Position numbers and translations under genes: made by a program. This document shows positions 1-31,618 of a stretch of 31,618 nt of DNA, piece after piece; positions within the stretch are counted from its first letter, which is position 1; each line of letters begins with the position of its first letter. The stretch is from Saccoglossus kowalevskii (Eukaryota; Hemichordata; Enteropneusta; Harrimaniidae), in contig NW_003129656.1 of assembly GCF_000003605.2 (NCBI RefSeq), forward strand, positions 1-31,618. The letters run 5' to 3'. The notes beneath the pieces are model-generated. The model searched no databases. It saw nothing but the letters and a program-made list of their open reading frames with translations, and was not told where the DNA came from.

Positions 1-71
1 AAGTTAATCTGCATCAGGCGTGGTTAGTACTTGCATGGGAGACCGGCTGGGAATACCACGTACAGTAGGCT
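1..71 (+). rRNA. 5S rRNA-like copy 1, partial (5' part outside window)
   Basis: Only positions 50-120 are inside the window. It differs from the consensus at G57T, G65A and G111A. Confidence 0.85.
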
Positions 72-79
72 CATCAACA

Positions 80-84
80 TTTTT
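80..84 (+). terminator. Possible Pol III terminator of class B spacer (T5)
   Basis: A T5 run starts 9 nt after the 5S 3' end of copy 1. The same site recurs in all class B and C spacers. Confidence 0.45.
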
Positions 85-115
85 ATTCCACATTACATAC
101 TAACATTTTCCCATG

Positions 116-122
116 TTTTTTT
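116..122 (+). terminator. T7 run in class B spacer, second possible Pol III terminator
   Basis: A T7 run follows CCCATG about 45 nt past the 5S end. It is typical of class B spacers and would act as a backup terminator. Confidence 0.35.
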
Positions 123-167
123 GTCTAGCCGAAGCAATAAATGACATCCAATTGCAACGAATATTCA

Positions 168-287
168 GCCTACTGCCAAACCAATGCAGAATACACCAGT
201 TTACGTCCGATCACTGAAGTTAAGCTGCTTCGGGCGTGGTTAGTACTTGCAAGGGACACCGGCTGGGAATACCACGTGCATTAGGCT
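168..287 (+). rRNA. 5S rRNA-like copy 2
   Basis: Class III copy with T17A, C35T, T36A, A62T, T85A, G90C and G114T. Helices II, IV and I are each hit. Confidence 0.88.
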
Positions 288-383
288 CATCAACATTTTT
301 ATTCCACCGTACATACTAACTTTTTCCCGGAATTTTTTGCATAGCCGAAGCAATAAATGATCTCCAATTCCAACGATTATTCA

Positions 384-503
384 GCCTACTGCCAACCCAT
401 TGCAGAATACACCAGTTCTCGTCCGATCACTGAAGTTAAGCTGCATCGGGCGTGCTTAGTACTTGCATGGGAGACTGGCTGGGAATACGACGTGAAGTAG
501 GCT
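384..503 (+). rRNA. 5S rRNA-like copy 3
   Basis: Class I copy with A13C, G72C, C93T, C106G and C112A. Helix V is weakened at two pairs. Confidence 0.88.
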
Positions 504-599
504 TTTCAACATTATTATTCCACCGTACATACAAACCTTTTCCCGGGATTTGTTGCCTAGCCCAAGTGTTAAATTACATTCAATTCCGACAAATATTCA

Positions 600-719
600 G
601 CCTACTGCCAAACCATTGCAGAATACACCAGTTCTCGTCCGATCACTGAAGTTAATCTGCATCGGGCATGGTTAGTACTTGCATGGGAGACCGGCTGGGA
701 ATACCACGTGCAGTAGGCC
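600..719 (+). rRNA. 5S rRNA-like copy 4
   Basis: Class II copy with G57T, G69A and T120C only. Confidence 0.9.
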
Positions 720-815
720 TATCAACATTATTATTCCACCATACATGCAAACATTTTCCCGGGATTTGTTGCCTAGCCAAAGTATTAAATTACATTCAAT
801 TCCAACAAATATTCA

Positions 816-935
816 GCCTACTGCCAAACTATTGCAGAATACACCAGTTCTCGTCCAATCACTGAAGTTAATCTGCATCGGGCATGGTTAGTACTTGCAT
901 GGGAGACCGGCTGGGAATACCACGTGCAGTAGGCT
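816..935 (+). rRNA. 5S rRNA-like copy 5
   Basis: Class II copy with C15T and G42A besides G57T and G69A. Confidence 0.9.
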
Positions 936-1031
936 TATCAACATTTTTATTCCATCGTGCATACTAACTTTTTCCCATGATTTTTTGCCTAGCCGTAGCA
1001 ATAAATGACATCCAATTCCGACGTATATTCA

Positions 1032-1151
1032 GCCTACTGCCAAACCAATGCAGAATACACCAGTTCTTGTCCGATCACTGAAGTTAATCTGCATCGGGCA
1101 TGGTTAGTACTTGCATGGGAGACCGGCTGGGAATACCACGTGCAGTAGGCT
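1032..1151 (+). rRNA. 5S rRNA-like copy 6
   Basis: Class II copy with T17A and C37T. The preceding spacer (936-1031) has the rare GCCGTAGC and GACGTATAT forms shared with 24019-24113. Confidence 0.9.
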
Positions 1152-1247
1152 TATCAACATTATTATTCCACCGTTCATGCAAACATTTTCCCGGGATTTG
1201 TTGCCTAGCCAAAGTATTAAATTACATTCAATTCCGACAAATATTCA

Positions 1248-1367
1248 GCATACTGCCAAATCATTGCAGAATACACCAGTTCTCGTCCGATCACTGAAGT
1301 TAATCTGCATCGGGCATGGTTAGTACTTGCATGGGAGACCGGCTGGGAATACCACGTGCAGTAGGCT
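1248..1367 (+). rRNA. 5S rRNA-like copy 7
   Basis: Class II copy with C3A (helix I) and C14T. Confidence 0.9.
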
Positions 1368-1463
1368 TATCAACATTATTATTCCACCGAACATGCAAAC
1401 ATTTTCCCGGGATTTGTTGCCTAGCCAAAGTATTAAATTACATTCAATTCGGACAAATTTTCA
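1368..1463 (+). repeat. Spacer class A (representative)
   Basis: This spacer class follows many class I and II copies. It begins TATCAACATTATTATTCC, so the T5 run of other classes is interrupted and the first run of four or more Ts lies about 35 nt past the 5S end. It continues with TTTCCCGGGATTTGTTG, GCCTAGCC, and a TATTAAATTA element at -33 to -24 of the next copy. Sub-forms differ at CATGCAAACATTTT versus CATACAAACCTTTT and at CAAAG versus CGAAG. Confidence 0.85.
1431..1440 (+). promoter_or_regulatory. TATA-like element upstream of copy 8
   Basis: TATTAAATTA occupies -33 to -24 relative to the 5S start at 1464. The same element precedes most copies that follow a class A or D spacer. A promoter role is inferred from position only. 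Confidence 0.45.
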
Positions 1464-1583
1464 GCCTACTGCCAAACCATTGCAGAATACACCAGTTCTC
1501 GTCCGATCACTGAAGTTAAGCTGCATCGGGCGTGGTTAGTACTTGCATGGGAGACCGGCAGGGAATACCACGTGCAGTAGGCT
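1464..1583 (+). rRNA. 5S rRNA-like copy 8, one difference from consensus
   Basis: Class I copy whose only difference from the array consensus is T97A, just outside helix IV. All five helices can form and box A is intact. With copy 141 it is one of the two best candidates for a transcribed gene in the window. T97 is conserved in most animal 5S genes and lies in the C-box, so TFIIIA binding could still be affected. Confidence 0.92.
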
Positions 1584-1679
1584 TATCAACATTATTATTC
1601 CACCGTAAATACAAACCTTTTCCCGGGATTTGTTGCCTAGCCGAATTATTAAATTACATTCAATTCCGACAAATATTCA

Positions 1680-1799
1680 GCCTACTGCCTAACCATTGCA
1701 GAATACACCAGTTCTCGTCCGATCACTGAAGTTAATCTGCATCGGGCATGGTTAGTACTTGGATTGGAGACCGGCTGGGAATACCACGTGCAGTAGGCT
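1680..1799 (+). rRNA. 5S rRNA-like copy 9
   Basis: Class II copy with A11T, C83G and G86T, which damage helix IV. Confidence 0.88.
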
Positions 1800-1895
1800 T
1801 ATCAACATTATTATTCCACCGTACATGCAAACATTTTCCCGGGATTTGTTGCCTAGCCAAAGTATTAAATTACATTCAATTCTGACAAATATTCA

Positions 1896-2015
1896 GCCTA
1901 CTGCCTAACCATTGCAGAATACACCAGTTCTCGTCCGATCACTGAAGTTAATCTGCATCGCGCATGGTTAGTACTTGCATGGGAGACCGGCTGGGAATAC
2001 CACGTGCAGTCGTCA
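1896..2015 (+). rRNA. 5S rRNA-like copy 10, class IV 3' end
   Basis: Has A11T, G57T, G66C and G69A, and ends GCAGTCGTCA, so helix I carries two mismatches. Confidence 0.85.
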
Positions 2016-2111
2016 TATCAACATTATTATTCCACCGTACATACAAACTTTTTCCCGGGAATTGTTGCCTAGCCGAAGTATTAAATTACATTCAATTCCG
2101 ACAAATATTCA

Positions 2112-2231
2112 TCCTACTGCCAAACCATTGTAGAATACACTAGTTCTCGTCCGATCACTGAAGTTAATCTGCATCGGGCATGGTTAGTATTTGCGTGGGA
2201 GACAGGCTGGGAATACCACGTGCATTAGGCT
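2112..2231 (+). rRNA. 5S rRNA-like copy 11
   Basis: Has G1T, C20T, C30T, G57T, G69A, C79T, A84G, C93A and G114T. Every helix is affected, so it is probably not functional. Confidence 0.85.
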
Positions 2232-2327
2232 CATCAACATTTTTATTCCACATTACATACTAACATTTTCCCATGTTTTTTTGCCTAGCCGAAGCAATAA
2301 ATGACATCCAATTGCAAGGAATATTCA

Positions 2328-2447
2328 GCCTACTGCCAAACCAATGCAGAATACACCAGTTCACGTCCGATCACTGAAGTTAAGCTGCATCGGGCGTGGT
2401 TAGAACTTGCAAGGGAGACCGGCTGGGAATACCACGTGCATTAGGCT
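2328..2447 (+). rRNA. 5S rRNA-like copy 12
   Basis: Class III copy with T17A, T36A, T77A (loop E), T85A and G114T. Confidence 0.88.
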
Positions 2448-2543
2448 CATCAACATTTCTATTCCACCATACATACTAACTTTTTCCCGGAATTTTTTGC
2501 ATAGCCAAAGCAATAAATGATCTCCAATTCCGACGAATATTCA
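2448..2543 (+). repeat. Spacer class C (representative)
   Basis: This spacer is typified by TTTTTCCCGGAATTTTTTGC, ATAGCC in place of CTAGCC, and AATGATCTCC or AATCATCTTC near the next copy. The downstream copy usually has A13C, often with C14T. Confidence 0.8.
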
Positions 2544-2663
2544 GCCTACTGCCAACTCATTGCAGAATACACCAGTTCTCGTCCGATCACTGAAGTTAAG
2601 CTGCATCGGGCGTGGTTAGTACTTGCATGGGAGACCGGCTGGGAATACCATGTGCAGTAGGCT
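2544..2663 (+). rRNA. 5S rRNA-like copy 13
   Basis: Class I copy with A13C, C14T and C108T. Pair 69-108 becomes a G-U wobble. Confidence 0.9.
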
Positions 2664-2759
2664 TATCAACATTATTATTCCACCGTACATACAAACTTTT
2701 TCCCGGGAATTGTTGCCTAGCCGAAGTATTAAATTACATTCAATTCCGACAAATATTCA

Positions 2760-2879
2760 TCCTACTGCCAAACCATTGTAGAATACACTAGTTCTCGTCC
2801 GATCACTGAAGTTAATCTGCATCGGGCATGGTTAGTATTTGCATGGGAGACAGGCTGGGAATACCACGTGAAGTAGGCT
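2760..2879 (+). rRNA. 5S rRNA-like copy 14
   Basis: Has G1T, C20T, C30T, G57T, G69A, C79T, C93A and C112A. Confidence 0.86.
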
Positions 2880-2975
2880 TATCAACATTATTATTCCACC
2901 GTACATGCAAACATTTTCCCGGGATTTGTTGCCTAGCCAAAGTATTAAATTACATACAATTCCGACAAATGTTCA

Positions 2976-3095
2976 GCCTACTGCCAAACCATTGCAGAAT
3001 ACACCAGTTCTCTTCCGATCACTGAAGTTAATCTGCATCGGGCATGGTTAGTACTTGCATGGGAGACCGACTGGTAATACCACGTGCAGTAGGCT
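2976..3095 (+). rRNA. 5S rRNA-like copy 15
   Basis: Class II copy with G38T, G95A and G100T. Confidence 0.88.
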
Positions 3096-3189
3096 TATCA
3101 ACATTTTTATTCCACCGTACATACTAACATTTTCCCATTTTTTTTCCTAGCCGAAGCAATAAATGACATCCAATTGCAACGAATATTCA

Positions 3190-3309
3190 GCCTACTGCCA
3201 ACCCATTGCAGAATACACCAGTTCTCATCCGATTACTGAAGTTAAGCTGCATCGGGCGTGGTTAGTACTTGCATGGGAGACTGGCTGAGAATACCACGTG
3301 CAGTAGGCT
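3190..3309 (+). rRNA. 5S rRNA-like copy 16
   Basis: Class I copy with A13C, G38A, C45T, C93T and G99A. Confidence 0.88.
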
Positions 3310-3405
3310 CATCAACATTTTTATTCCACATTACATACTATCATTTTCCCATGTTTTTTTGCCTAGCCGAAGCAATAAATGACATCCAATTGCAACAAAT
3401 ATTCA

Positions 3406-3525
3406 GCCTACTGCCAATCCAGTGCAGAATACACCAGTTCACGTCCGATCACTGAAGTTAAGCTGCATAGGGCGTGGTTAGTACTTGCAAGGGAGACCGG
3501 CTGGGAATACCACGTGCAGTAGGCT
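3406..3525 (+). rRNA. 5S rRNA-like copy 17
   Basis: Has A13T, T17G, T36A, C64A and T85A. Helix I is intact. Confidence 0.88.
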
Positions 3526-3621
3526 TATCAACATTATTATTCCACCGTACATGCAAACATTTTCCCGGGATTTGTTGCCTAGCCAAAGTATTAAGTTACA
3601 TTCAATTCCGACAAATATTCA

Positions 3622-3741
3622 GCCTGCTGCCAAACTATTGCAGAATACAACAGTTCTCGTCCGATCACTGAAGTTAATGTGCATCGGGCATGGTTAGTAC
3701 TTTCAGGGGAGACCGGCTGGGAATACCATGTGCAGTAGGCT
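3622..3741 (+). rRNA. 5S rRNA-like copy 18
   Basis: Has A5G, C15T, C29A, G57T, C58G, G69A, G82T, T85G and C108T. A69 and T108 re-form a helix V pair. Confidence 0.87.
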
Positions 3742-3837
3742 TATCAACATTTTTATTCCACCGTGCATACTAACATTTTCCCATGTTTTTTTGCCTAGCC
3801 GAAGCAATAAATGACATCCAATTGCAACGAATATTCA

Positions 3838-3957
3838 GCCTACTGCCAACCCATTGCAGAATACACCAGTTCTCATCCGATCACTGAAGTTAAGCTGCAT
3901 CGGGCGTGGTTAATACTTGCATGGGAGACTGGCTGGGAATACCACGTGCAGTAGGCT
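3838..3957 (+). rRNA. 5S rRNA-like copy 19
   Basis: Class I copy with A13C, G38A, G76A and C93T. Confidence 0.89.
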
Positions 3958-4052
3958 CATCAACATTTTTATTCCACATTACATACTAACATTTTCCCAT
4001 GTTTTTTTGCCTAGCCGAAGCAATAAATGACATCCAATTGCAGGAATATTCA

Positions 4053-4172
4053 GCCTACTGCCAAACCAATGCAAAATACACCAGTTCTCGTCCGATCACT
4101 GAAGTTAATCTGCATCGGGCATGGTTAGTACTTGCATGGGAGACCGGCTGGGAATACCACATGCATTAGGCT
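4053..4172 (+). rRNA. 5S rRNA-like copy 20
   Basis: Has T17A, G22A, G57T, G69A, G109A and G114T. Confidence 0.88.
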
Positions 4173-4268
4173 CATCAACATTTTTATTCCACCATACATA
4201 CTAACTTTTTCCCGGGATTTTTTGCCTAGCCGAAGTATTAAATTACATTCAATTCCGACAAATATTCA

Positions 4269-4388
4269 TTCTACTGCCAAACCATTGTAGAATACACCAG
4301 TTCTCGTCCGATCACTGAAGTTAATCTGCATCGGGCATGGTTAGTACTAGCATGGGAGACCGGCTGGGAATACCACGTGCAGTAGGCT
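4269..4388 (+). rRNA. 5S rRNA-like copy 21
   Basis: Class II copy starting TTCTACTGCC (G1T, C2T), with C20T and T81A. Confidence 0.87.
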
Positions 4389-4484
4389 TATCAACATTAT
4401 TATTCCACCGTACATGCAAACATTTTCCCGGGATTTGTTGCCTAGCCAAAGTATTAAATTACATTCAATTCCGACAAATATTCA

Positions 4485-4604
4485 GCCTACTGCCAAACCA
4501 TTGCAGAATACACCAGTTCTCGTCCGATCACTGAAGTTAAGCTGCATCAGGCGTGGTTAGTACTTGCATGGGAGACCGGCAGGGAATACCACGTGCAGTA
4601 GGCT
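4485..4604 (+). rRNA. 5S rRNA-like copy 22
   Basis: Class I copy with G65A and T97A only. Confidence 0.9.
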
Positions 4605-4700
4605 TATCAACATTATTATTCCACCGTACATACAAACCTTTTCCCGGGATTTGTTGCCTAGCTGAAGTATTAAATTACATTCAATTCCGACAAATATTCA

Positions 4701-4820
4701 GCCTACTGCCAAACCATTGCAGAATACACCAGTTCTCGTCCGATCACTGAAGTTGATCTGCATCGGGCATGGTTAGTACTTGCATGGGAGACCAGCTGGG
4801 AATACCACGTGCAGTAGGCT
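4701..4820 (+). rRNA. 5S rRNA-like copy 23
   Basis: Class II copy with A55G and G94A. Confidence 0.9.
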
Positions 4821-4916
4821 TATCAACATTATTATTCCACCGTACATGCAAACATTTTCCCGGGATTTGTTGCCTAGCCAAAGTATTAAATTACATTCAA
4901 TTCCGACAAATATTCA

Positions 4917-5036
4917 GCCTACTGCCAAACCATTGGAGAATACAACAGTTCTCGTCCGATCACTGAAGTTAATGTGCATCGGGCATGGTTAGTACTTTCA
5001 TGGGAGACCGGCTGGGAATACCATGTGCAGTATGCT
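4917..5036 (+). rRNA. 5S rRNA-like copy 24
   Basis: Has C20G, C29A, G57T, C58G, G69A, G82T, C108T and G117T. C108T restores pairing with A69. Confidence 0.87.
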
Positions 5037-5132
5037 TATCAACATTTTTATTCCACCGTGCATACTAACATTTTCCCATGTTTTTTTGCCTAGCCGAAGC
5101 AATAAATGACATCCAATTGCAACGAATATTCA

Positions 5133-5252
5133 GCCTACTGCCAACCCATTGCAGAATACACCAGTTCTCATGCGATCACTGAAGTTAAGCTGCATCGGGC
5201 GTGGTTAGTACTTGCATGGGAGACTGGCTGGGAATACCACGTGCAGTAGGCT
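5133..5252 (+). rRNA. 5S rRNA-like copy 25
   Basis: Class I copy with A13C, G38A, C40G and C93T. Confidence 0.89.
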
Positions 5253-5347
5253 CATCAACATTTTTATTCCACATTACATACTAACATTTTCCCATGTTTG
5301 TTTGCCTAGCCGAAGCAATAAATGACATCCAATTGCAGGAATATTCA

Positions 5348-5467
5348 GCCTACTGCCAAACCAATGCAGAATACACCAGTTCTCGTCCGATCACTGAAGT
5401 TAATCTGCATCGGGCATGGTTAGTACTTACATGGGAGACCGGCTGGGAATACCAAGTGCCTTCGTCA
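5348..5467 (+). rRNA. 5S rRNA-like copy 26, class IV 3' end
   Basis: Has T17A, G57T, G69A, G82A and C108A, and ends GCCTTCGTCA. Helix I carries four mismatches. Confidence 0.84.
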
Positions 5468-5563
5468 TATCAACATTATTATTCCACCGTACATACAAAC
5501 TTTTTCCAGGGATTTGTTGCCTAGCCGAAGTATTTAATTACATTCAATTCCGACAAATATTCA

Positions 5564-5683
5564 GCCTACTGCCAAACCATTGCAGAATACACCAGTTCTC
5601 GTCCGATCACTGAAGTTAATCTGCATCGGGCATGGTTAGTACTTGCATGGGAGACCGGCTGGGAATACCACGTGCAGTAGGCT
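5564..5683 (+). rRNA. 5S rRNA-like copy 27, class II reference
   Basis: A plain class II copy that differs only at G57T and G69A. The A69-C108 mismatch is uncompensated. Confidence 0.91.
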
Positions 5684-5779
5684 TATCAAAATTATTATTC
5701 CACCGTACATGCAAACATTTTCCCGGGATTTGTTGCCTAGCCAAAGTATTAAATTTCATTCAATTCCGACAAATATTCA

Positions 5780-5899
5780 GCCTACTGCCAAACCATTGCA
5801 GAATACACCAGTTCTCGTCCGATCACTGAAGTTAAGCTGCATCGGGCATGGTTAGTACTTACATGGGAGACCGGCAGGGAATACCACGTGCAGTAGGCT
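5780..5899 (+). rRNA. 5S rRNA-like copy 28
   Basis: Has G69A without G57T, plus G82A and T97A. Confidence 0.89.
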
Positions 5900-5995
5900 T
5901 ATCAACATTATTATTCCACCGTACATACAAACCTTTTCCCTGGATTTGTTGCCTAGCCGAAGTATTTAATTACATTCAATTCCGACAAATATTCA

Positions 5996-6115
5996 GCCTA
6001 CTGCCAAACCATTGCAGAATACACCAGTTCTCGTCCGATCACTGAAGTTAAGCTGCATCGGGCGTGGTTGGTACTTGCATGGGAGACCGGCAGGGAATAC
6101 CACGTGCAGTAGGCT
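5996..6115 (+). rRNA. 5S rRNA-like copy 29
   Basis: Class I copy with A75G (loop E) and T97A. Confidence 0.9.
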
Positions 6116-7841: not shown

Positions 7842-7937
7842 TATCAACATTATTATTCCACCGTACATACAAACCTTTTCTCGGGATTTGTTGCCTAGCC
7901 GAAGTATTAAATTACATTCAATTCCGACGAATATTCA

Positions 7938-8057
7938 GCCTACTGCCAAACCATTGCAGAATACACCAGTTCTTGTCCGATCACTGAAGTTAAGCTGCAT
8001 CGGGCATGGTTAGTACTTGCAAGGGAGACCGGCTGGGAATACCACGTGCATTAGGCT
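7938..8057 (+). rRNA. 5S rRNA-like copy 38
   Basis: Class III copy with C37T, G69A, T85A and G114T. The same form recurs as copies 98 and 145. Confidence 0.88.
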
Positions 8058-8153
8058 CATCAACATTTTTATTCCACATTACATACTAACATTTTCCCAT
8101 GTTTTTTTGCCTAGCCGAAGCAATAAAAGACATCCAATTGCAAGGAATATTCA

Positions 8154-8273
8154 GCCTACTGCCAAACCAAAGCAGAATACACCAGTTCACGTCCGATCAC
8201 TGAAGTTAAGCTGCATCGGGCGTGGTTAGTACTTGCAAGGGAGACCGGCTGGGAATACCACGTGCATTAGGCT
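8154..8273 (+). rRNA. 5S rRNA-like copy 39
   Basis: Class III copy with T17A, T18A, T36A, T85A and G114T. T18A breaks a helix II pair. The same form recurs as copies 46, 99, 134 and 146. Confidence 0.88.
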
Positions 8274-8369
8274 CATCAACATTTTTATTCCACCGTACAT
8301 ACTAACTTTTTCCCGGAATTTTTTGCATAGCCAAAGCAATAAATCATCTTCAATTCCGACGAATATTCA

Positions 8370-8489
8370 GCCTACTGCCAACTCATTGCAGAATACACCA
8401 GTTCTCGTCCGATCACTGAAGTTAAGCTGCATCGGGCGTGGTTAGTACATGCATGGGAGACCAGCTGGGAATACCATGTGCAGTAGGCT
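8370..8489 (+). rRNA. 5S rRNA-like copy 40
   Basis: Class I copy with A13C, C14T, T80A, G94A and C108T. Confidence 0.88.
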
Positions 8490-18080: not shown

Positions 18081-18199
18081 ACCTACTGACAAATCATTGC
18101 AGAATACACCTGTTCTCGTCCGATCATTGAAGTTAAGCCCACCAGACGTGTTTAGTACTTGCATGGGAGACCGGCTGGTAATACCACGTGCAGTAGGCT
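18081..18199 (+). pseudogene. 5S pseudogene copy 85, box A region replaced
   Basis: Positions 58-67 are rewritten and one base short: AAGCCCACCAGACGTG replaces AAGCTGCATCGGGCGTG. Helix II cannot form. Also present are G1A, C9A, C14T, A31T, C47T, G72T and G100T. Helices IV and I remain recognisable. The same form is seen at 22823 and, slightly altered, at 30588. Confidence 0.85.
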
Positions 18200-18292
18200 T
18201 ATCAACATTTTTATTCCACCGTACATACTAACATTTTCCCATTTTTTTCCTAGCCGAAGCAATAAATGACATCCAATTGCAACGAATATTGA

Positions 18293-18412
18293 GCCTACTG
18301 CCAACCCATTGCAGAATACACCAGTTCTCATCCGATCACTGAAGTTAAGCTGCATCGGGCGTGGTTAGTACTTGCATGGGAGACCGGCTGAGAATACCAC
18401 GTGCAGTAGGCT
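18293..18412 (+). rRNA. 5S rRNA-like copy 86
   Basis: Class I copy with A13C, G38A and G99A. Confidence 0.89.
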
Positions 18413-18508
18413 CATCAACATTTTTATTCCACATAACATACTAACATTTTCCCATGTTTTTTTGCCTAGCCGAAGCAATAAATGACATCCAATTGCAACA
18501 AATATTCA

Positions 18509-18628
18509 TCCTACTGCCAAACCAATGCAGAATACACCAGTTCACGTCCGATCACTGAAGTTAAGCTGCATAGGGCGTGGTTAGTACTTGCAAGGGAGAC
18601 CGGCTGGGAATACCACGTGCTGTAGGCT
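18509..18628 (+). rRNA. 5S rRNA-like copy 87
   Basis: Has G1T, T17A, T36A, C64A, T85A and A113T. Confidence 0.88.
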
Positions 18629-18724
18629 TATCAACATTATTATTCCACCGTACATACAAACCTTTTCCCGGGATTTGTTGCCTAGCCGAAGTATTTAATT
18701 ACATTCAATTCCGACAAATATTCA

Positions 18725-20665: not shown

Positions 20666-20785
20666 GCCTACTGCCAAACCAATGCAGAATACACCAGTTC
20701 TCGTCCGATCACTGAAGTTAATCTGCATCGGGCATGGTTAGTACTTACATGGGAGACCGGCTGGGAATACCACGTGCAGTCGTCA
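20666..20785 (+). rRNA. 5S rRNA-like copy 97, class IV 3' end
   Basis: Has T17A, G57T, G69A and G82A, and ends GCAGTCGTCA. Confidence 0.86.
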
Positions 20786-20881
20786 TATCAGCATTATTAT
20801 TCTACCGTACATACAAACTTTTTCCAGGGATTTGTTGCCTAGCCGAAGTATTAAATTACATTCAATTCCGACGAATATTCA
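20786..20881 (+). repeat. Spacer class D (representative), follows class IV copies
   Basis: This spacer follows copies whose 3' end reads GTCGTCA. It resembles class A but has CTTTTTCCAGGGATTTG in place of CCCGGG, and GACGAATATTCA just before the next copy. The link between the altered 5S end and this spacer suggests they have been copied together. Confidence 0.75.
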
Positions 20882-21001
20882 GCCTACTGCCAAACCATTG
20901 CAGAATACACCAGTTCTTGTCCGATCACTGAAGTTAAGCTGCATCGGGCATGGTTAGTACTTGCAAGGGAGACCGGCTGGGAATACCACGTGCATTAGGC
21001 T
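20882..21001 (+). rRNA. 5S rRNA-like copy 98
   Basis: Class III copy with C37T, G69A, T85A and G114T. Confidence 0.88.
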
Positions 21002-21097
21002 CATCAACATTTTTATTCCACATTACATACTAACATTTTCCCATGTTTTTTTGCCTAGCCGAAGCAATAAAAGACATCCAATTGCAAGGAATATTCA

Positions 21098-21217
21098 GCC
21101 TACTGCCAAACCAAAGCAGAATACACCAGTTCACGTCCGATCACTGAAGTTAAGCTGCATCGGGCGTGGTTAGTACTTGCAAGGGAGACCGGCTGGGAAT
21201 ACCACGTGCATTAGGCT
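21098..21217 (+). rRNA. 5S rRNA-like copy 99
   Basis: Class III copy, same form as copy 39. Confidence 0.88.
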
Positions 21218-21313
21218 CATCAACATTTTTATTCCACCGTACATACTAACTTTTTCCCGGAATTTTTTGCATAGCCAAAGCAATAAATCATCTTCAATTC
21301 CGACGAATATTCA

Positions 21314-21433
21314 GCCTACTGCCATCTCATTGCAGAATACACCAGTTCTCGTCCGATCACTGAAGTTAAGCTGCATCGGGCGTGGTTAGTACTTGCATGG
21401 GAGACCAGCTGGGAATACCATGTGCAGTAGGCT
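21314..21433 (+). rRNA. 5S rRNA-like copy 100
   Basis: Class I copy with A12T, A13C, C14T, G94A and C108T. Confidence 0.88.
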
Positions 21434-22822: not shown

Positions 22823-22941
22823 ACCTACTGACAAACCATTGCAGAATACACCTGTTCTCGTCCGATCATTGAAGTTAAGCCCACCAGACGTGTTTAGTAC
22901 TTGCATGGGAGACCGGCTGGTAATACCACGTGCAGTAGGCT
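22823..22941 (+). pseudogene. 5S pseudogene copy 107, box A region replaced
   Basis: Same rewritten stretch as copy 85 (AAGCCCACCAGACGTG) with G1A, C9A, A31T, C47T, G72T and G100T. It lacks the C14T of copy 85. Confidence 0.85.
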
Positions 22942-25407: not shown

Positions 25408-25527
25408 GCCTACTGCCAACTCATTGCAGAATACACCTGTTCTCGTCCGATCACTGAAGTTAAGCTGCATCGGGCGTGGTTAGTACTTGCATGGGAGACC
25501 GGCTGGGAATACCATGTGCAGTAGGCT
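25408..25527 (+). rRNA. 5S rRNA-like copy 119
   Basis: Class I copy with A13C, C14T, A31T and C108T. Confidence 0.89.
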
Positions 25528-25623
25528 TATCAACATTATTATTCCACCGTACATACAAACTTTTTCCCGGGAATTGTTGCCTAGCCGAAGTATTAAATTA
25601 CATTCAATTCCGACAAATATTCA

Positions 25624-25743
25624 TCCTACTGCCAAACCATTGTAGAATACACTAGTTCTCGTCCGATCACTGAAGTTAATCTGCATCGGGCATGGTTAGT
25701 ATTTGCATGGGAGACAGGCTGGGAATACCACGTGAAGTAGGCT
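25624..25743 (+). rRNA. 5S rRNA-like copy 120
   Basis: Same form as copy 14, including C112A. Confidence 0.86.
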
Positions 25744-25839
25744 TATCAACATTATTATTCCACCGTACATGCAAACATTTTCCCGGGATTTGTTGCCTAG
25801 CCAAAGTATTAAATTACATACAATTCCGACAAATGTTCA

Positions 25840-25959
25840 GCCTACTGCCAAACCATTGCAGAATACACCAGTTCTCGTCCGATCACTGAAGTTAATCTGC
25901 ATCGGGCATGGTTAGTACTTGCATGGGAGACCGACTGGGAATACCACGTGCAGTAGGCT
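25840..25959 (+). rRNA. 5S rRNA-like copy 121
   Basis: Class II copy with G95A. Confidence 0.9.
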
Positions 25960-26057
25960 CATCAACATTTTTATTCTACATTACATACTAACATTTTCCC
26001 CATGTTTTTTTTGCCTAGCCGAAGCAATAAATGACATCCAATTGCAACGAATATTCA

Positions 26058-26177
26058 GCCTACTGCCAAACCAATGCAGAATACACCAGTTCACGTCCGA
26101 TCACTGAAGTTAAGCTGCATCGGGCGTGGTTAGTACTTGCAAGGGAGACCGGCTGGGAATACCACGTGCATTAGGCT
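26058..26177 (+). rRNA. 5S rRNA-like copy 122
   Basis: Class III copy with T17A, T36A, T85A and G114T. Confidence 0.88.
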
Positions 26178-26273
26178 CATCAACATTTTTATTCCACCAT
26201 ACATAGTAACTTTTTCCCGGAATTTTTTGCATAGCCGAAGCAATAAATGATCTCCAATTCCGACGAATATTCA

Positions 26274-26393
26274 GCCTACTGCCAACCCATTGCAGAATAC
26301 ACCAGTTCTCGTCCGATCACTGAAGTTAAGCTGCATTGGGCGTGGTTAGTACTTGCATGGGAGACCGGCTGGGAATACCACGTGCAGTAGGCT
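26274..26393 (+). rRNA. 5S rRNA-like copy 123
   Basis: Class I copy with A13C and C64T only. Confidence 0.91.
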
Positions 26394-26489
26394 TTTCAAC
26401 ATTATTATTCCACCGTACATACAAACTTTTGTCCGGGATTCGTTGCCTAGCCGAAGTATTAAATTACATTCAATTCCGACAAATATTCA

Positions 26490-26609
26490 GCCTACTGCCA
26501 AACCATTGCAGAATACACCAGTTCTCGTCCGATCACTGAAGTTAATCTGCATCGGGCATGGTTAGTACTTGCATGGGAGACCGGCTGGGAATACCACGTG
26601 CAGTAGGCT
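26490..26609 (+). rRNA. 5S rRNA-like copy 124
   Basis: Plain class II copy with G57T and G69A only. Confidence 0.91.
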
Positions 26610-26705
26610 TATCAACATTATTATTCCACCGTACATGCAAACATTTTCCCGGGATTTGTTGCCTAGCCAAAGTATTAAATTACATTCAATTCCGACAAAT
26701 ATTCA

Positions 26706-26825
26706 GCCTACTGCCAAACCATTGCAGAATACACCGGTTCTCGTCCGATCACTGAAGTTAATCTGCATCGGGCATGGTTAGTACTTGCATGGGAGACCGG
26801 CTGGGAATACCACGTGCAGTAGGCT
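26706..26825 (+). rRNA. 5S rRNA-like copy 125
   Basis: Class II copy with A31G, which gives a G-U wobble in helix III. Confidence 0.9.
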
Positions 26826-26921
26826 TATCAACATTTTTATTCCACCGTACATACTAACATTTTCCCATGTTTTTTTGCCTAGCCGAAGCAATAAATGACA
26901 TCCAATTGCAACGAATATTCA

Positions 26922-27039
26922 GACTACTGCCAACCCATTGCAGAATACACCAGTTCTCATCCGATCACTGAAGTTAAGCTGCATCGGGCGTGGTAGTACT
27001 GCATGGTAGACCGGCTGGGAATACCACGTGCATTAGGCT
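26922..27039 (+). pseudogene. 5S rRNA-like copy 126, two-base loss around loop E
   Basis: GGTAGTACTGCATGG lacks two Ts of the consensus loop E to helix IV stretch. Also has C2A, A13C, G38A, G88T and G114T. Confidence 0.83.
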
Positions 27040-27135
27040 CATCAACATTTTTATTCCACATTACATACTAACTTTTTCCCGGAATTTTTTGCATAGCCAA
27101 AGCAATAAATCATCTTCAATTCCGACGAATATTCA

Positions 27136-27255
27136 GCATACTGCCAAACCATTGCAGAATACACCAGTTCTCGTCAGATCACTGAAGTTAATCTGCATCG
27201 GGCATGGTTAGTACTTGCATGGGAGACCGGCTGGTAATACCACGTGCAGTAGGCT
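27136..27255 (+). rRNA. 5S rRNA-like copy 127
   Basis: Class II copy with C3A, C41A and G100T. Confidence 0.88.
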
Positions 27256-27349
27256 TATCAACATTTTTATTCCACCGTACATACTAACATTTTCCCATTT
27301 TTTTTCCTAGCCGAAGCAATAAATGACATCCAATTGCAACAAATATTCA

Positions 27350-27469
27350 GCCTACTGCCAACCCATCGCATAATACACCAGTTCTCATCCGATCACTGAA
27401 GTTAAGCTGCATCAGGCGTGGTTAGTACTTGCATGGGAGACCGGCTGAGAATACCACGTTCAGTAGGCT
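27350..27469 (+). rRNA. 5S rRNA-like copy 128
   Basis: Same form as copy 43, with broken helix II. Confidence 0.87.
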
Positions 27470-27564
27470 CATCAACATTTTTATTCCACATTACATACTA
27501 ACATTTTCCCATGTTTTTTTGCCTAGCCGAAGCAATAAATGACATCCAATTGCAGGAATATTCA

Positions 27565-27684
27565 GCCTACTGCCAAACCAATGCAGAATACACCAGTTCT
27601 TGTCCGATCACTGAAGTTAATCTGCATCGGGGATGGATAGTACTTACATGGGAGACCGGCTGGGAATACCACGTGCAGTCGTCA
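27565..27684 (+). rRNA. 5S rRNA-like copy 129, class IV 3' end
   Basis: Has T17A, C37T, G57T, C68G, G69A, T73A and G82A, and ends GCAGTCGTCA. Helix V is also damaged. Confidence 0.85.
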
Positions 27685-27780
27685 TATCAACATTATTATT
27701 CTACCGTACATACAAACTTTTTCCAGGGATTTGTTGCCTAGCCGAAGTATTAAATTATATTCAATTCCGACGAATATTCA

Positions 27781-27900
27781 GCCTACTGCCTAACCATTGC
27801 AGAATACACCAGTTCTCGTCCGATCACTGAAGTTAAGCTGCATCGGGCGTGGTTGGTACTTGCATGGGAGACCGGCTGGGAATATCACGTGCAGTAGGCT
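27781..27900 (+). rRNA. 5S rRNA-like copy 130
   Basis: Class I copy with A11T, A75G and C105T. Confidence 0.9.
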
Positions 27901-27996
27901 TATCAACATTATTATTCCACCGTACATGCAAACATTTTCCCGGGATTTGTTGCCTAGCCAAAGTATTAAATTACATTCAATTCCGACAAATATTCA

Positions 27997-28116
27997 GCCT
28001 ACTGCCAAACCATTGCAGAATACAACAGTTCTCGTCCGATCACTAAAGTTAATGTGCATCGGGCATGGTTACTACTTTCATGGGAGACCGGCTGGGAATA
28101 CCATGTGCAGTAGGCT
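27997..28116 (+). rRNA. 5S rRNA-like copy 131
   Basis: Has C29A, G49A, G57T, C58G, G69A, G76C, G82T and C108T. Confidence 0.87.
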
Positions 28117-28211
28117 CATCAACATTTTTATTCCACATTACATACTAACATTTTCCCATGTTTTTTTGCCTAGCCGAAGCAATAAATGACATCCAATTGC
28201 AGGAATATTCA

Positions 28212-28331
28212 GCCTACTGCCAAACCAATGCAGAATACACCAGTTCTCGTCCGATCACTGAAGTTAATCTGCATCGGGCATGGTTAGTACTTACATGGGA
28301 GACCGGCTGGGAATACCACGTGCAGTCGTCA
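28212..28331 (+). rRNA. 5S rRNA-like copy 132, class IV 3' end
   Basis: Same form as copy 97. Confidence 0.86.
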
Positions 28332-28427
28332 TATCAACATTATTATTCTACCGTACATACAAACTTTTTCCAGGGATTTGTTGCCTAGCCGAAGTATTAA
28401 ATTACATTCAATTCCGACGAATACTCA

Positions 28428-28547
28428 GCCTACTGCCAAACCATTGCAGAACACACCAGTTCTAGTCCGATCACTGAAGTTAAGCTGCATCGGGCATGGT
28501 TAGTACTTGCAAGGGAGACCGGCTGGGAATACCACGTGCATTAGGCT
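28428..28547 (+). rRNA. 5S rRNA-like copy 133
   Basis: Class III copy with T25C, C37A, G69A, T85A and G114T. Confidence 0.87.
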
Positions 28548-28643
28548 CATCAACATTTTTATTCCACATTACATACTAACATTTTCCCATGTTTTTTTGC
28601 CTAGCCGAAGCAATAAAAGACATCCAATTGCAAGGAATATTCA

Positions 28644-28763
28644 GCCTACTGCCAAACCAAAGCAGAATACACCAGTTCACGTCCGATCACTGAAGTTAAG
28701 CTGCATCGGGCGTGGTTAGTACTTGCAAGGGAGACCGGCTGGGAATACCACGTGCATTAGGCT
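28644..28763 (+). rRNA. 5S rRNA-like copy 134
   Basis: Class III copy, same form as copy 39. Confidence 0.88.
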
Positions 28764-28859
28764 CATCAACATTTTTATTCCACCGTACATACTAAATTTT
28801 TCCAGGAATTTTTTGCATAGCCAAAGCAATAAATCATCTTCAATTCCGACGAATATTCA

Positions 28860-28979
28860 GCCTACTGCCAACTCATTGCAGAATACACCAGTTCTCGTCC
28901 GATCACTGAAGTTAAGCTGCATCGGGCGTGGTTGGTACTTGCATGGGAGACCGGCTGGGAATATCACGTGCAGTAGGCT
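28860..28979 (+). rRNA. 5S rRNA-like copy 135
   Basis: Class I copy with A13C, C14T, A75G and C105T. The 5' half matches copy 47 and the 3' half copy 95, so it is probably a recombinant. Confidence 0.89.
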
Positions 28980-29075
28980 TATCAACATTATTATTCCACC
29001 GTAAATGCAAACATTTTCCCGGGATTTGTTGCCTAGCTGAAGCAATAAATGACATTCAATTCCGACAAATATTCA

Positions 29076-29195
29076 GCCTACTGCCAAACCAATGCAGAAT
29101 ACACCAGTTCACGTCCGATCACTGAAGTTAAGCTGCATCGGGCGTGGTTAGTACTTGCAAGGGAGACCGGCTGGGAATACCACGTGCATTAGGCT
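29076..29195 (+). rRNA. 5S rRNA-like copy 136
   Basis: Class III copy with T17A, T36A, T85A and G114T, preceded by a mosaic A/B spacer. Confidence 0.88.
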
Positions 29196-29292
29196 CATCA
29201 ACATTTTTATTCCACCGTACATACTAACTTTTTCCCGGAATTTTTTTGCATAGCCGAAGCAATAAATGATCTCCAATTCCGACGAATATTCA

Positions 29293-29412
29293 GCCTACTG
29301 CCAACCCATTGCAGAATACACCAGTTCTCGTCCGATCACTGAAGTTAAGCTGCATTGGGCGTGGTTAGTACTTGCATGGGAGACCGGCAGGGAATGCCAC
29401 GTGCAGTAGGCT
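29293..29412 (+). rRNA. 5S rRNA-like copy 137
   Basis: Class I copy with A13C, C64T, T97A and A104G. Confidence 0.89.
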
Positions 29413-29508
29413 TATCAACATTTTTATTCCACCGTACATACAAATCTTTTCCCGGGATTTGTTGCCTAGCCGAAGTATTTAATTACATTCAATTCCGACA
29501 AATATTCA

Positions 29509-29628
29509 GCCTACTGCCAAACCATTGCAGAATACACCAGTTCTTGTCCGATCACTGAAGTTAATCTGCATCGGGCATGGTTAGTACTTGCATGGGAGAC
29601 CGGCTGGGAATACCACGTGCAGTAGGCT
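29509..29628 (+). rRNA. 5S rRNA-like copy 138
   Basis: Class II copy with C37T. Confidence 0.9.
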
Positions 29629-29723
29629 TATCAACATTATTATACCACCGTACATGCAAACATTTTCCCGGGATTTGTTGCCTAGCCAAAGTATTAAATT
29701 TCATCAATTCCGACAAATATTCA

Positions 29724-29843
29724 GCCTACTGCCAAACCGTTGCAGAATACACCAGTTCTCGTCCGATCACTGAAGTTAAGCTGCATCGGGCGTGGTTGGT
29801 ACTTGCATGGGAGACCGGCAGGGAATACCACGTGCAGTAGGCT
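29724..29843 (+). rRNA. 5S rRNA-like copy 139
   Basis: Class I copy with A16G, A75G and T97A. Confidence 0.89.
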
Positions 29844-29939
29844 TATCAACATTATTATTCCACCGTACATACAAACCTTTTCCCGGGATTTGTTGCCTAG
29901 CCGAAGTATTAAATTACATTCAATTCCGACAAATATTCA

Positions 29940-30059
29940 GCCTACTGCCAAACCATTGCAGAATACACCAGTTCTCGTCCGATCACTGAAGTTGATCTGC
30001 ATCGGGCATGGTTAGTACTTGCATGGGAGACCGGCTGGGAATACCACGTGCAGTAGGCT
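29940..30059 (+). rRNA. 5S rRNA-like copy 140
   Basis: Class II copy with A55G. Confidence 0.9.
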
Positions 30060-30122
30060 TATTAACATTATTATTCCACCGTACATGCAAACATTTTCCC
30101 GGGATTTGTTGCCTAGCCGAAG

Positions 30123-30132
30123 CAATAAATGA
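30123..30132 (+). promoter_or_regulatory. TATA-like element upstream of copy 141
   Basis: CAATAAATGA lies at -33 to -24 relative to the 5S start. Class A spacers have TATTAAATTA at the same distance. AT-rich elements near -30 contribute to 5S transcription in insects, Neurospora and plants; the role here is inferred from position. Confidence 0.4.
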
Positions 30133-30155
30133 TCTCCAATTCCGACGAATATTCA

Positions 30156-30275
30156 GCCTACTGCCAACCCATTGCAGAATACACCAGTTCTCGTCCGATC
30201 ACTGAAGTTAAGCTGCATCGGGCGTGGTTAGTACTTGCATGGGAGACCGGCTGGGAATACCACGTGCAGTAGGCT
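30156..30275 (+). rRNA. 5S rRNA-like copy 141, one difference from consensus
   Basis: Class I copy whose only difference from the array consensus is A13C in loop A. All five helices pair, box A, the intermediate element and box C are consensus, and loop E is intact. It follows a mosaic spacer at 30060-30155. With copy 8 it is the best candidate for a transcribed 5S gene here. A13 is well conserved in animal 5S rRNA, so even this copy is not perfect. Confidence 0.92.
30206..30253 (+). promoter_or_regulatory. Internal control region of copy 141 (box A, intermediate element, box C)
   Basis: By alignment to the known type 1 Pol III promoter of 5S genes, box A falls at about positions 51-65, the intermediate element at 68-73 and box C at 81-98 of this copy. 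All three match the array consensus here. TFIIIA binding is expected from the family. The C-box carries C83 and G95, a swapped base pair relative to most animals. Confidence 0.6.
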
Positions 30276-30308
30276 TATCAACATTATTATTCCACCGTAC
30301 ATACAAAC

Positions 30309-30313
30309 TTTTT
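30309..30313 (+). terminator. Possible Pol III terminator after copy 141 (T5)
   Basis: This is the first run of four or more Ts after the 5S end at 30275. It lies 34 nt downstream because the nearer site reads ATTATTATT. Termination here would leave a 3' trailer to be trimmed. Confidence 0.4.
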
Positions 30314-30371
30314 CCCGGGATTTGTTGCCTAGCCAAAGTATTAAATTACATTCAATTCCGACAAATATTCA

Positions 30372-30491
30372 GCCTACTATCAAACCATTGCAGAATACAC
30401 CAGTTCTCGTCCGATCACTGAAGTTAATCTGCATCGGGCATGGTTAGTACTTGCATGAGAGACCGGCTGAGAATACCACGTGCATTAGGCT
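30372..30491 (+). rRNA. 5S rRNA-like copy 142
   Basis: Has G8A, C9T, G57T, G69A, G87A, G99A and G114T. Confidence 0.87.
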
Positions 30492-30587
30492 CATCAACAT
30501 TTTTATTCCACCATACATACTAACTTTTTCCCGGGATTTTTTGCCTAGCCGAAGTATTAAATTACATCCAATTCCGACGAATATTCA

Positions 30588-30706
30588 ACCTACTGACAAA
30601 CCATTGCAGAATACACCTGTTCTCGTCCGATCATTGAAGTTAAGCCCACCAGACGTGGTTAGTACTTGCATGGGAGACCGGCTGAGAATACCGCATGCAG
30701 TAGGCT
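30588..30706 (+). pseudogene. 5S pseudogene copy 143, box A region replaced
   Basis: Third copy with AAGCCCACCAGACGTG in place of the box A to helix II stretch, with G1A, C9A, A31T and C47T. It keeps G72 and adds G99A, A107G and G109A. Confidence 0.85.
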
Positions 30707-30801
30707 CATCAACATTTTTATTCCACCGTACATACTAACTTTTTTCCATGTTTTTTGGCCTAGCCGAGTATTAAATTACATTCAATTCCGACAAATATTC
30801 A

Positions 30802-30921
30802 GCCTACTGCCAAACCATTGCAGAATACACCAGTTCTCGTCTGATCACTGAAGTTAATCTGCATCGGGCATGGTTAGTACTTGCATGTGTGACCGGCTGG
30901 GAATACCACGTGCAGTCGTCA
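30802..30921 (+). rRNA. 5S rRNA-like copy 144, class IV 3' end
   Basis: Has C41T, G57T, G69A, G87T and A89T, and ends GCAGTCGTCA. Confidence 0.85.
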
Positions 30922-31017
30922 TATCAGCATTATTATTCTACCGTACATACAAACTTTTTCCAGGGATTTGTTGCCTAGCCGAAGTATTAAATTACATTCA
31001 ATTCCGACGAATATTCA

Positions 31018-31137
31018 GCCTACTGCCAAACCATTGCAGAATACACCAGTTCTTGTCCGATCACTGAAGTTAAGCTGCATCGGGCATGGTTAGTACTTGC
31101 AAGGGAGACCGGCTGGGAATACCACGTGCATTAGGCT
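31018..31137 (+). rRNA. 5S rRNA-like copy 145
   Basis: Class III copy with C37T, G69A, T85A and G114T. Confidence 0.88.
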
Positions 31138-31233
31138 CATCAACATTTTTATTCCACATTACATACTAACATTTTCCCATGTTTTTTTGCCTAGCCGAAG
31201 CAATAAAAGACATCCAATTGCAAGGAATATTCA

Positions 31234-31353
31234 GCCTACTGCCAAACCAAAGCAGAATACACCAGTTCACGTCCGATCACTGAAGTTAAGCTGCATCGGG
31301 CGTGGTTAGTACTTGCAAGGGAGACCGGCTGGGAATACCACGTGCATTAGGCT
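31234..31353 (+). rRNA. 5S rRNA-like copy 146
   Basis: Class III copy, same form as copy 39. Confidence 0.88.
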
Positions 31354-31449
31354 CATCAACATTTTTATTCCACCGTACATACTAACTTTTTCCCGGAATT
31401 TTTTGCATAGCCAAAGCAATAAATCATCTTCAATTCCGACGAATATTCA

Positions 31450-31569
31450 GCCTACTGCCAACTCATTGCAGAATACACCAGTTCTCGTCCGATCACTGAA
31501 GTTAAGCTGCATCGGGCGTGGTTAGTACTTGCATGGGGAGACGGGCTGGGATACCACGTGCAGTAATCT
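31450..31569 (+). rRNA. 5S rRNA-like copy 147, last in window
   Basis: Has A13C, C14T, one extra G in the helix IV loop stretch (ATGGGGAG), C93G, one A lost in loop E (GGGATACC), G117A and G118T. The following spacer (31570-31618) is cut by the window edge and has unusual TATCCACATTGTTATT. Confidence 0.86.
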
Positions 31570-31618
31570 TATCCACATTGTTATTCCACCGTACATACTA
31601 ACTTTTTCCCATGTTTTT

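Follow-up and report, generated by a model that had tools for sequence, protein, structure and literature searches.

A 216-bp satellite DNA with a divergent 5S rRNA gene as its probable ancestor in the hemichordate Saccoglossus kowalevskii

The window analysed here is a stretch of 31,618 nucleotides that makes up the entire contig C2140 of Saccoglossus kowalevskii. It raises the question of what a tandem array of 5S-like sequences represents when its copies differ from one another. An earlier note, made from the sequence alone, had proposed either a decaying 5S cluster or a unit turned satellite, with no selection on the RNA during its amplification. The tandem 5S array that it described is confirmed. 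Tandem Repeats Finder gives a single array from 1 to 31610, with a period of 216, 146.5 copies and 89% matches, the contig being satellite from end to end. With the Rfam 5S model (RF00001), 147 matches exceed the gathering score, each of them on the forward strand; 146 are full length and one is truncated by the left end of the window. Steps between units measure 216 bp in 108 out of 145 cases and 212-218 bp in the remainder. Only complete units, 145 in number, enter the aligned window set; the incomplete ones at either end (a half-unit on the left, a partial unit on the right) were dropped. The main features are the following:

1 to 31,618, forward strand: head-to-tail array of the presumed 5S-derived satellite, with a 216-bp unit (5S-like region at unit positions 1-120, spacer at 121-216), from repeat finding, Rfam and unit steps
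1 to 167, forward strand: incomplete unit at the left end, with 5S model positions 50-120 followed by spacer (Rfam match cut at its 5' end)
1464 to 1679, forward strand: seventh complete unit (copy 8), 5S region one base off the consensus with G at position 69
7883 to 8448, forward strand: 566-base exact repeat with a second copy at 30963, an example of recent multi-unit block duplication
18095 to 18655, forward strand: 561-base exact repeat with a second copy at 22837
20755 to 21324, forward strand: 570-base exact repeat, present again 46.9 units further on at 30891
22823 to 22941, forward strand: lowest-scoring full-length 5S region (60.5 bits with Rfam)
30156 to 30371, forward strand: 140th complete unit (copy 141), 5S region one base off the consensus with G at position 69

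The 145 units comprise 133 distinct whole sequences and 111 distinct 5S regions, so that nearly every copy is indeed different. The mean distance to the majority consensus is 5.27 differences per 120-base 5S region. The statement that only copies 8 and 141 come within one base of the consensus is exact (two of the 145 complete units) if the consensus takes G at 5S position 69, where the window has 73 A and 72 G; with A at this position, the two nearest units are instead the 26th and the 123rd. Copy 8 scores highest in the window with Rfam (98.7 bits) and copy 141 contains, at 30174-30267, its sole exact copy of a 94-base consensus core. The lowest score contrasts with the 110-113 bits of most true genes scored elsewhere in the genome. 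Outside the window, 401 units taken from pieces of 13 other contigs show the same variation (546 units in all).

These copies were described as not homogenised. Neighbours do differ, but homogenisation occurs by duplication of multi-unit blocks rather than between neighbours. Blocks were traced by exact repeats and unit-wise distances, since megablast yielded no duplicated or shared blocks after filtering by identity and length, and its alignments within the window were long whole-array shifts at about 90%. Within the window, 78 of the 145 units are matched by another unit at no more than two differences and 114 at no more than four. The repeat at 18095 to 18655 belongs to a run of five units (82-86 paired with 104-108, each pair 0-4 differences apart). 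We infer that the satellite spread mainly by such block duplications. Copies would mutate independently, and unequal exchange or a similar process would duplicate blocks of two to seven units; this would account for neighbours that resemble each other no more than distant units do, and for near-identical units tens of positions apart. Between the window and the other contigs (35 pieces, all in the same orientation), no exact match of at least 250 bases is shared, the longest being 138 bases.

The satellite is present at high copy number in many places. A 16-base spacer word has 2,984 exact matches genome-wide (none for the reversed-pattern control) and detects 399 of the 546 known units, which leads to an estimate of about 4,080 units, i.e. 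0.88 Mb. Matches lie on at least 44 contigs, of which a part was read. The head-to-tail arrays in the pieces read speak against a 5S-derived SINE, which would occur as dispersed single copies with a tail.

Separate and near-uniform arrays of true 5S genes exist in the same genome, as the earlier note had suggested checking. Of 18,217 first-look candidates, 47 were scored; all of them are true-gene matches (105-113 bits) on C3485, C2212 and C3801. Their diversity is 0.003-0.014 in four 10-kb samples of six to eight units each; in one of these samples, gene diversity exceeds that of the spacer (0.0105 vs 0.0058). The 3' end of the gene type, T-run included, likewise has 47 exact matches, on C3485, C2212, C3801 and C53. 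From these sequences, the genome appears to have normal-type 5S genes separate from the satellite. Like the satellite, these ordinary arrays consist of 5S plus spacer repeated head to tail, but they differ by their units of about 1,139 and 1,579 bp, their near-uniform genes and the T-run directly after the gene. This T-run, expected as a terminator directly after the coding region of a functional array, is missing from the satellite consensus. Of the 546 units, 421 have their first TTTT at unit position 128-129 and 84 at 154-155, and the exact form with TTTT directly after GGC is found at 10 places genome-wide. Moreover, unit matches to the four sampled true-gene pieces end at unit position 119-121 in 32 cases out of 32, and the only matches of the satellite spacer to these pieces are two of 16 bases, at chance level (E 0.17).

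Functional 5S arrays also have near-identical coding regions, with a diversity far below that of the spacer. In the window, per-site diversity is 0.072 in the 5S region, with its 111 distinct sequences, and 0.130 in the spacer (0.087 and 0.138 over all 546 units). The 5S region is thus the less variable part, but not to the extent that would have contradicted a loss of selection. Two spacer types, A and B, were defined mainly from spacer sites (16 of 18 common sites); that they lack 5S differences is due partly to this construction and partly to recombination. Type A shows equal decay of both parts (0.039 in 5S, 0.037 in spacer), and type B has values of 0.047 and 0.069. The types follow no order along the window (69 runs, 73.5 expected).

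Within the satellite, no constraint on the 5S region can be detected in the variation now present. Window variants found in at most 14 of the 145 units number 127 in the 5S region (1.06 per site) and 81 in the spacer (0.84 per site). They occur at 1.12 per paired and 0.98 per unpaired site, and break pairs at roughly the random rate. Array-private variants, which reach at least 10% in one array group, number 61 in 5S and 51 in spacer, and 26 of the 30 at paired sites break the pair (82% at random). No covariation was detected within the satellite (2.48 broken pairs per unit, 2.46 after shuffling). Variants common to many arrays do show 5S constraint. Those that reach a share of at least 10% in half or more of the nine array groups number 6 in 5S and 15 in spacer (p 0.034; p 0.058 at the 15% level). 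Likewise, window variants are equally split at 15-40 units (9 and 9) and depleted in 5S at 41-80 units (2 in 5S, 16 in spacer; Fisher p 6e-5 against the class of at most 14 units). The old-versus-young contrast by array-group number alone is weak (p 0.079) and close to saturation (532 of 648 possible variants seen). In our reading, the raw gap between 5S and spacer diversity is the trace of an earlier constrained phase.

These data lead us to consider, with a probability of about 0.8, that the window represents part of a satellite whose compact 216-bp unit goes back to a divergent 5S rRNA gene. Amplification without selection on the RNA is supported by the separate near-uniform arrays and the spread over many contigs, as well as by the equal density of rare variants in 5S and spacer, the near-random rate of pair breaking and the lack of covariation.

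A second 5S family that is still expressed, such as the oocyte-type 5S of Xenopus, would require selection at the level of the array, variants being tolerated while rare and removed when common. The rarity of common shared variants in the 5S region is consistent with this view, as is the consensus of the 546 units, which folds as a 5S RNA with zero broken pairs. In addition, 30 of the 145 window units and 53 of all 546 have no broken pair, and 14 of the 546 also keep the consensus at the counted internal control positions. However, variants common inside one array are equally dense in both parts and mostly break pairs, the T-run of the true genes is missing and near-uniform true genes exist. 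Moreover, the exact 94-base cores, 52 genome-wide against about 4,080 units, are close to what random decay at 4.4% per site would leave (our own estimate). We therefore regard an expressed family as unlikely.

The nature of the changes between gene and satellite bears on the other proposal, a decaying 5S cluster. The 5S-like region has an identity of about 91% with the true gene, from which the 546-unit consensus differs by nine substitutions and one insertion. Both sides have changed in three compensated pairs (7/113, 18/62 and 31/48), pairs 20/60 and 26/53 have gone from G-U in the gene to Watson-Crick in the satellite, and the remaining substitution is a loop change, T to A at position 12; no pair is broken. 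The window majority A at position 69 would break pair 69/108, but this position was omitted since it is polymorphic and the 546-unit consensus has G, like the gene. Pseudogenisation of present true-gene copies followed by their amplification would account for the high identity and for the six of the nine fixed substitutions that lie at CpG sites of the gene. However, when changes are placed at random, 20,000 times under each of eight settings (CpG weight 1-20), at least three compensated pairs arise in at most 0.17% of placements, and in at most 0.04% with no break, so that this pattern is unlikely for pseudogene decay even at CpG weight 20; homology to the true-gene arrays also ends at unit position 121. 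The unit descends from a 5S gene, as a decaying cluster implies, but does not resemble decayed copies of present-day genes, and we give simple decay of the present cluster even less credit than an expressed family.

For the satellite, we propose that the founder would have been a working 5S gene lineage of a second type, with at least two spacer types and under selection for RNA structure. Its arrays, whose role the long-unit arrays would fill, would then have been freed from selection and have expanded as a satellite. The change at position 12 affects a loop position with a capital (conserved) letter in the Rfam consensus line, so that a partial loss of function in the founder may have preceded amplification. 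Some of the changes may also have occurred on the branch of the present gene. More tentatively, the satellite may be what is left of a distinct and now retired second hemichordate 5S rRNA type, with a compensated fold of its own, which once worked beside the present one (for example in eggs) and whose best copies may still be transcribed.

That the satellite contigs stem from a foreign organism present in the sample (parasite, prey or symbiont) seems very improbable. The 13 other sampled satellite contigs are short (12-52 kb) and satellite throughout in the pieces read, and the 5S part is ten changes away from the true gene, as a foreign sequence might be. However, on C404, C1072 and C4545 satellite units adjoin a piece with relatives on the 442-kb C3651 (92% identity over 274 bases) and at 191 kb of C994 (81% over about 140 bases). 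From its translation, this piece is a putative retrotransposon, although a 54-residue part of it has no Pfam match; it would have landed in a unit and been carried along in some contigs. This link runs via a repeat and is good rather than final. Lastly, sequencing or assembly errors, to which the 101 singleton variants of the window could point, hardly explain the close partners of most units, the equal lack of constraint on variants common within an array, or the near uniformity of true 5S genes in the same assembly.

Satellites derived from 5S are already known from frogs and fish, and the present one, a tandem unit with a recognisable 5S-like region now free of RNA-level constraint (from the variant tests, with which the near-saturated comparison by array-group number agrees), is another. 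PcP190 of hyloid frogs has a unit of about 190 bp with a 120-bp 5S-like part and a variable part, is thought to derive from 5S rDNA and lies on contigs apart from the 5S arrays, which come in two types in the species studied (PMC11675491, PMC4201667). By this description it resembles our satellite in composition and separate location, but it belongs to hosts of a different phylum and its similarity to 5S is about 70%, against about 91% here. Its 5S-like part is about 80% similar between species, whereas here both parts decay equally within type A of one genome. 5SHindIII, the 5S-derived centromeric satellite of the fish Hoplias malabaricus, is likewise described as a tandem repeat derived from 5S rDNA. 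The 5S arrays of Tribolium freemani also associate 5S, satellite and retrotransposons (Jockey-like elements), but their full-length 5S genes are regarded as functional and the satellite forms the spacer, whereas here the 5S region lies inside the satellite unit (PMC11202950). Our literature search gave no account of a 5S-derived satellite in hemichordates or of 5S rDNA in Saccoglossus, and none of the titles on S. kowalevskii satellite DNA concerned this satellite.

For annotation, these arrays call for caution: Rfam passes all 147 window copies as 5S rRNA, whereas the near-uniform 5S genes are elsewhere. Since fixed changes kept the RNA fold and young variants ignore it, the loss of selection can be placed between them, which makes this a readable example of the transition from gene to satellite. 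If the satellite is a retired second type, its arrays would record, within one genome, when an rRNA gene type lost selection.

The assembly comprises 572 Mb in 4,830 contigs, and the window corresponds to all 31,618 bp of one of them (C2140), a single head-to-tail array of 216-bp units. It contains 147 Rfam 5S matches, all on the + strand, of which 146 are full-length (60.5-98.7 bits) and one is truncated at the left end. Among the 145 complete units that were aligned, the two partial units being excluded, 133 whole units and 111 5S regions are distinct, and the 5S regions carry on average 5.27 differences from the majority consensus; the 5S copies do differ, as the earlier note had stated. 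It had also singled out copies 8 and 141 (counting the left half-unit), and these are indeed the only units within one base of the consensus, provided that the evenly split 5S position 69 is taken as G; with A instead, two other units fall within one base. The comparison of per-site diversity that it had proposed gives, for the aligned units of the window, 0.072 in the 5S region versus 0.130 in the spacer.

Much of this spacer excess results from linked sites that separate the units into two spacer types, A (n=74) and B (n=71). Units were typed by the first component over 18 common sites; as 16 of these lie in the spacer, the split is biased toward it by construction. Between the A and B consensus sequences there are 14 differing spacer sites, with frequency differences exceeding 0.8 at seven of them, and two differing 5S sites (57 and 69, frequency differences 0.25 and 0.13). 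Divergence from the type's own consensus is 0.039 in the 5S region and 0.037 in the spacer for type A, and 0.047 and 0.069 for type B, which contains subtypes.

A second, uniform 5S cluster, whose search the earlier note had called for, is present: near-uniform arrays, which we consider as carrying the true genes from their sequence, occur on C3485 (unit of about 1,139 bp), C2212 and C3801 (about 1,579 bp). For the 47 candidates scored, Rfam gives 105-113 bits, and a few additional genes in fetched pieces reach 101-106 bits. Diversity across four 10-kb samples, each holding 6-8 units, is 0.0028-0.014 for the genes and 0.0058-0.019 for their spacers, the genes being more diverse than the spacer in one sample. 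A T-run directly follows the 3' end of the true gene, and the exact gene-type 3' end with its T-run occurs 47 times genome-wide, always within these three contigs except for one copy on C53. That copy (C53:384716-384733) is a lone 3' end within a large contig, apart from the arrays. Matches of satellite units to true-gene pieces all stop at the gene end (32/32). Furthermore, 12 of 14 genes of the 1,579-bp array type, from two fetched pieces, have a T at position 111, and the longer spacer of C2212 contains a degenerate 44/88-bp minisatellite.

Relative to the true gene, the consensus of 546 units (those of the window and 401 from 13 other contigs) carries nine substitutions and a one-base insertion. 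The majority consensus of the window has one extra change, A69, which is polymorphic (73:72), breaks a pair and was excluded from the nine fixed substitutions. Mapped onto the Rfam fold, these nine comprise six that make up three compensated pairs (7/113, 18/62 and 31/48), two (20 and 26) that convert G-U into Watson-Crick pairs and one (12) in a loop; none breaks a pair. Nine substitutions were also placed at random, with 20,000 trials for each of eight settings (CpG weight from 1 to 20). At least three compensated pairs arose in no more than 0.17% of trials, all pairs stayed intact in 0.16-1.9%, and the two outcomes coincided in no more than 0.04%. The change at position 12 falls at a site conserved in the Rfam consensus line and argues against the founder having been perfect.

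In the window, variants found in 14 units or fewer number 127 in the 5S region (1.06 per site; 1.12 at paired and 0.98 at unpaired sites) and 81 in the spacer (0.84 per site), and pairing is disrupted by 56 of the 76 paired-site variants (82% expected at random). Variants found in 15-40 units are equally numerous in both regions (nine each), and those found in 41-80 units number two in the 5S region and 16 in the spacer (Fisher p 6e-5 versus the rarest class). Over the 546 units, 34 of 41 paired-site variants confined to one of the 14 contigs are pair-breaking, versus 7 of 13 for those present in at least eight contigs. Covariation was sought in these units and none was found, with 2.48 broken pairs per unit observed and 2.46 with shuffled partners. 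Exact 94-base consensus cores number 52 genome-wide, one of them in the window, which by our estimate is about the expectation from random decay.

If common 5S variants were still being removed, those recently risen inside one array should be scarcer in the 5S region. No such depletion was found among array-private variants (at least 10% in one array group and below 2% elsewhere, a change qualifying in two groups being counted twice), with 61 in the 5S region and 51 in the spacer; of the 30 that fall at paired sites, 26 are pair-breaking. Variants reaching 10% in half or more of the nine groups (each of at least 20 units) are scarcer in the 5S region (6 versus 15 in the spacer; Fisher p 0.034 versus private ones), with 1 versus 8 at the 15% level (p 0.058) and 0 versus 8 at 20% (p 0.018). 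Comparing old and young variants between the two regions by group number alone showed no significant contrast (p 0.079), in a test that is close to saturated, with 532 variants seen out of 648 possible. From private variants being undepleted and widespread ones depleted, we read a phase during which the 5S region would have been constrained, followed by release from selection.

Units appear to spread mainly by blocks rather than to their neighbours. In the window, neighbouring units are no closer than distant ones (22.2 versus 21.8 differences), runs of 2-7 units recur at distances of 5-112 units with 0-4 differences per unit, and 26 exact repeats, 257-570 bp long, are separated by 6-107 units. 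A partner within four differences exists for 114 of the 145 units, at a median separation of 43 units. All four combinations are seen for 437 of 666 pairs of common sites, and exchange therefore also breaks within units. The closest unit to a window unit has a median of 2 differences inside the window and 13 in the pieces sampled from other contigs, with which no exact match of at least 250 bases was found. By medians, the closest unit lies in the same contig for 10 of 14 contigs and elsewhere for C1639, C3259, C3892 and C981; therefore, certain contigs either belong to a common array or exchange blocks. A shortened two-unit piece (unit 1-139 fused to 16-216), found on C1640 and C404 (fetched pieces L044 2133-2466, L045 542-875 and L059 1955-2288), is another block copied between or within arrays.

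Satellite matches occur on at least 44 contigs, window included, as tallied over several searches with some of these contigs read, and C1639, C1640 and C3800 carry satellite at both ends. The 401 units from other contigs resemble those of the window (pi over all 546 units: 0.087 in the 5S region, 0.138 in the spacer). Exact genome matches to a 16-base spacer word number 2,984 (none for the reversed-pattern control), and the word detects 399 of the 546 known units, hence an estimate of about 4,080 units (0.88 Mb) from an assembly that places these arrays on short contigs. On C3034, consensus-core matches lie on both strands (1089 + and 8479 -), and at least one array therefore switches orientation.

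By our reading of the sequence, a retrotransposon-like piece adjoins the satellite on C404, C1072 and C4545. On C1072, satellite lies to its left and right, and a target duplication of six bases corresponds to unit positions 142-147. The left junction of C4545 is identical, its right junction leading to non-satellite DNA; C404 shares the right junction of C1072 but has at least 252 further element bases on the left. A single shared insertion is therefore likely for C1072 and C4545, and C404 may or may not derive from it. Relatives of the piece are found on the 442-kb contig C3651 (92% over 274 bases) and on C994 (81% over about 140 bases), a link through a repeat which suggests that the satellite belongs to this genome.

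The assembly also has a mitochondrial contig (C4830, 17,037 bp), in which cox1 was identified by Pfam and the other genes were named by their reading frames. By our reading of conserved positions, ATA encodes Ile, AAA Lys and TGA Trp; cox1 lies on the strand opposite to cox2 and most genes, and nad2 then nad1 follow the 16S gene. PMC3121625 describes, for the S. kowalevskii mitochondrion, AUA coding for Ile and AAA for Lys, inversion of COX1 and a displaced ND1 or ND2. The contig resembles this description in its inverted cox1, AAA Lys and ATA Ile, which makes Saccoglossus, or a close relative of it, the probable source animal.

As a class, 5S-derived satellites are already known. A repeat of Hoplias is reportedly derived from 5S. 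PcP190 of frogs, as described in PMC11675491, combines a 120-bp 5S-like part, about 70% similar to 5S genes, with a variable part, and is located on contigs separate from the 5S arrays. Our literature search found no report of a 5S-derived satellite in a hemichordate. The C2140 satellite belongs with PcP190 and the Hoplias repeat, and what it adds to them is a fold-preserving founder contrasted with unconstrained copies.
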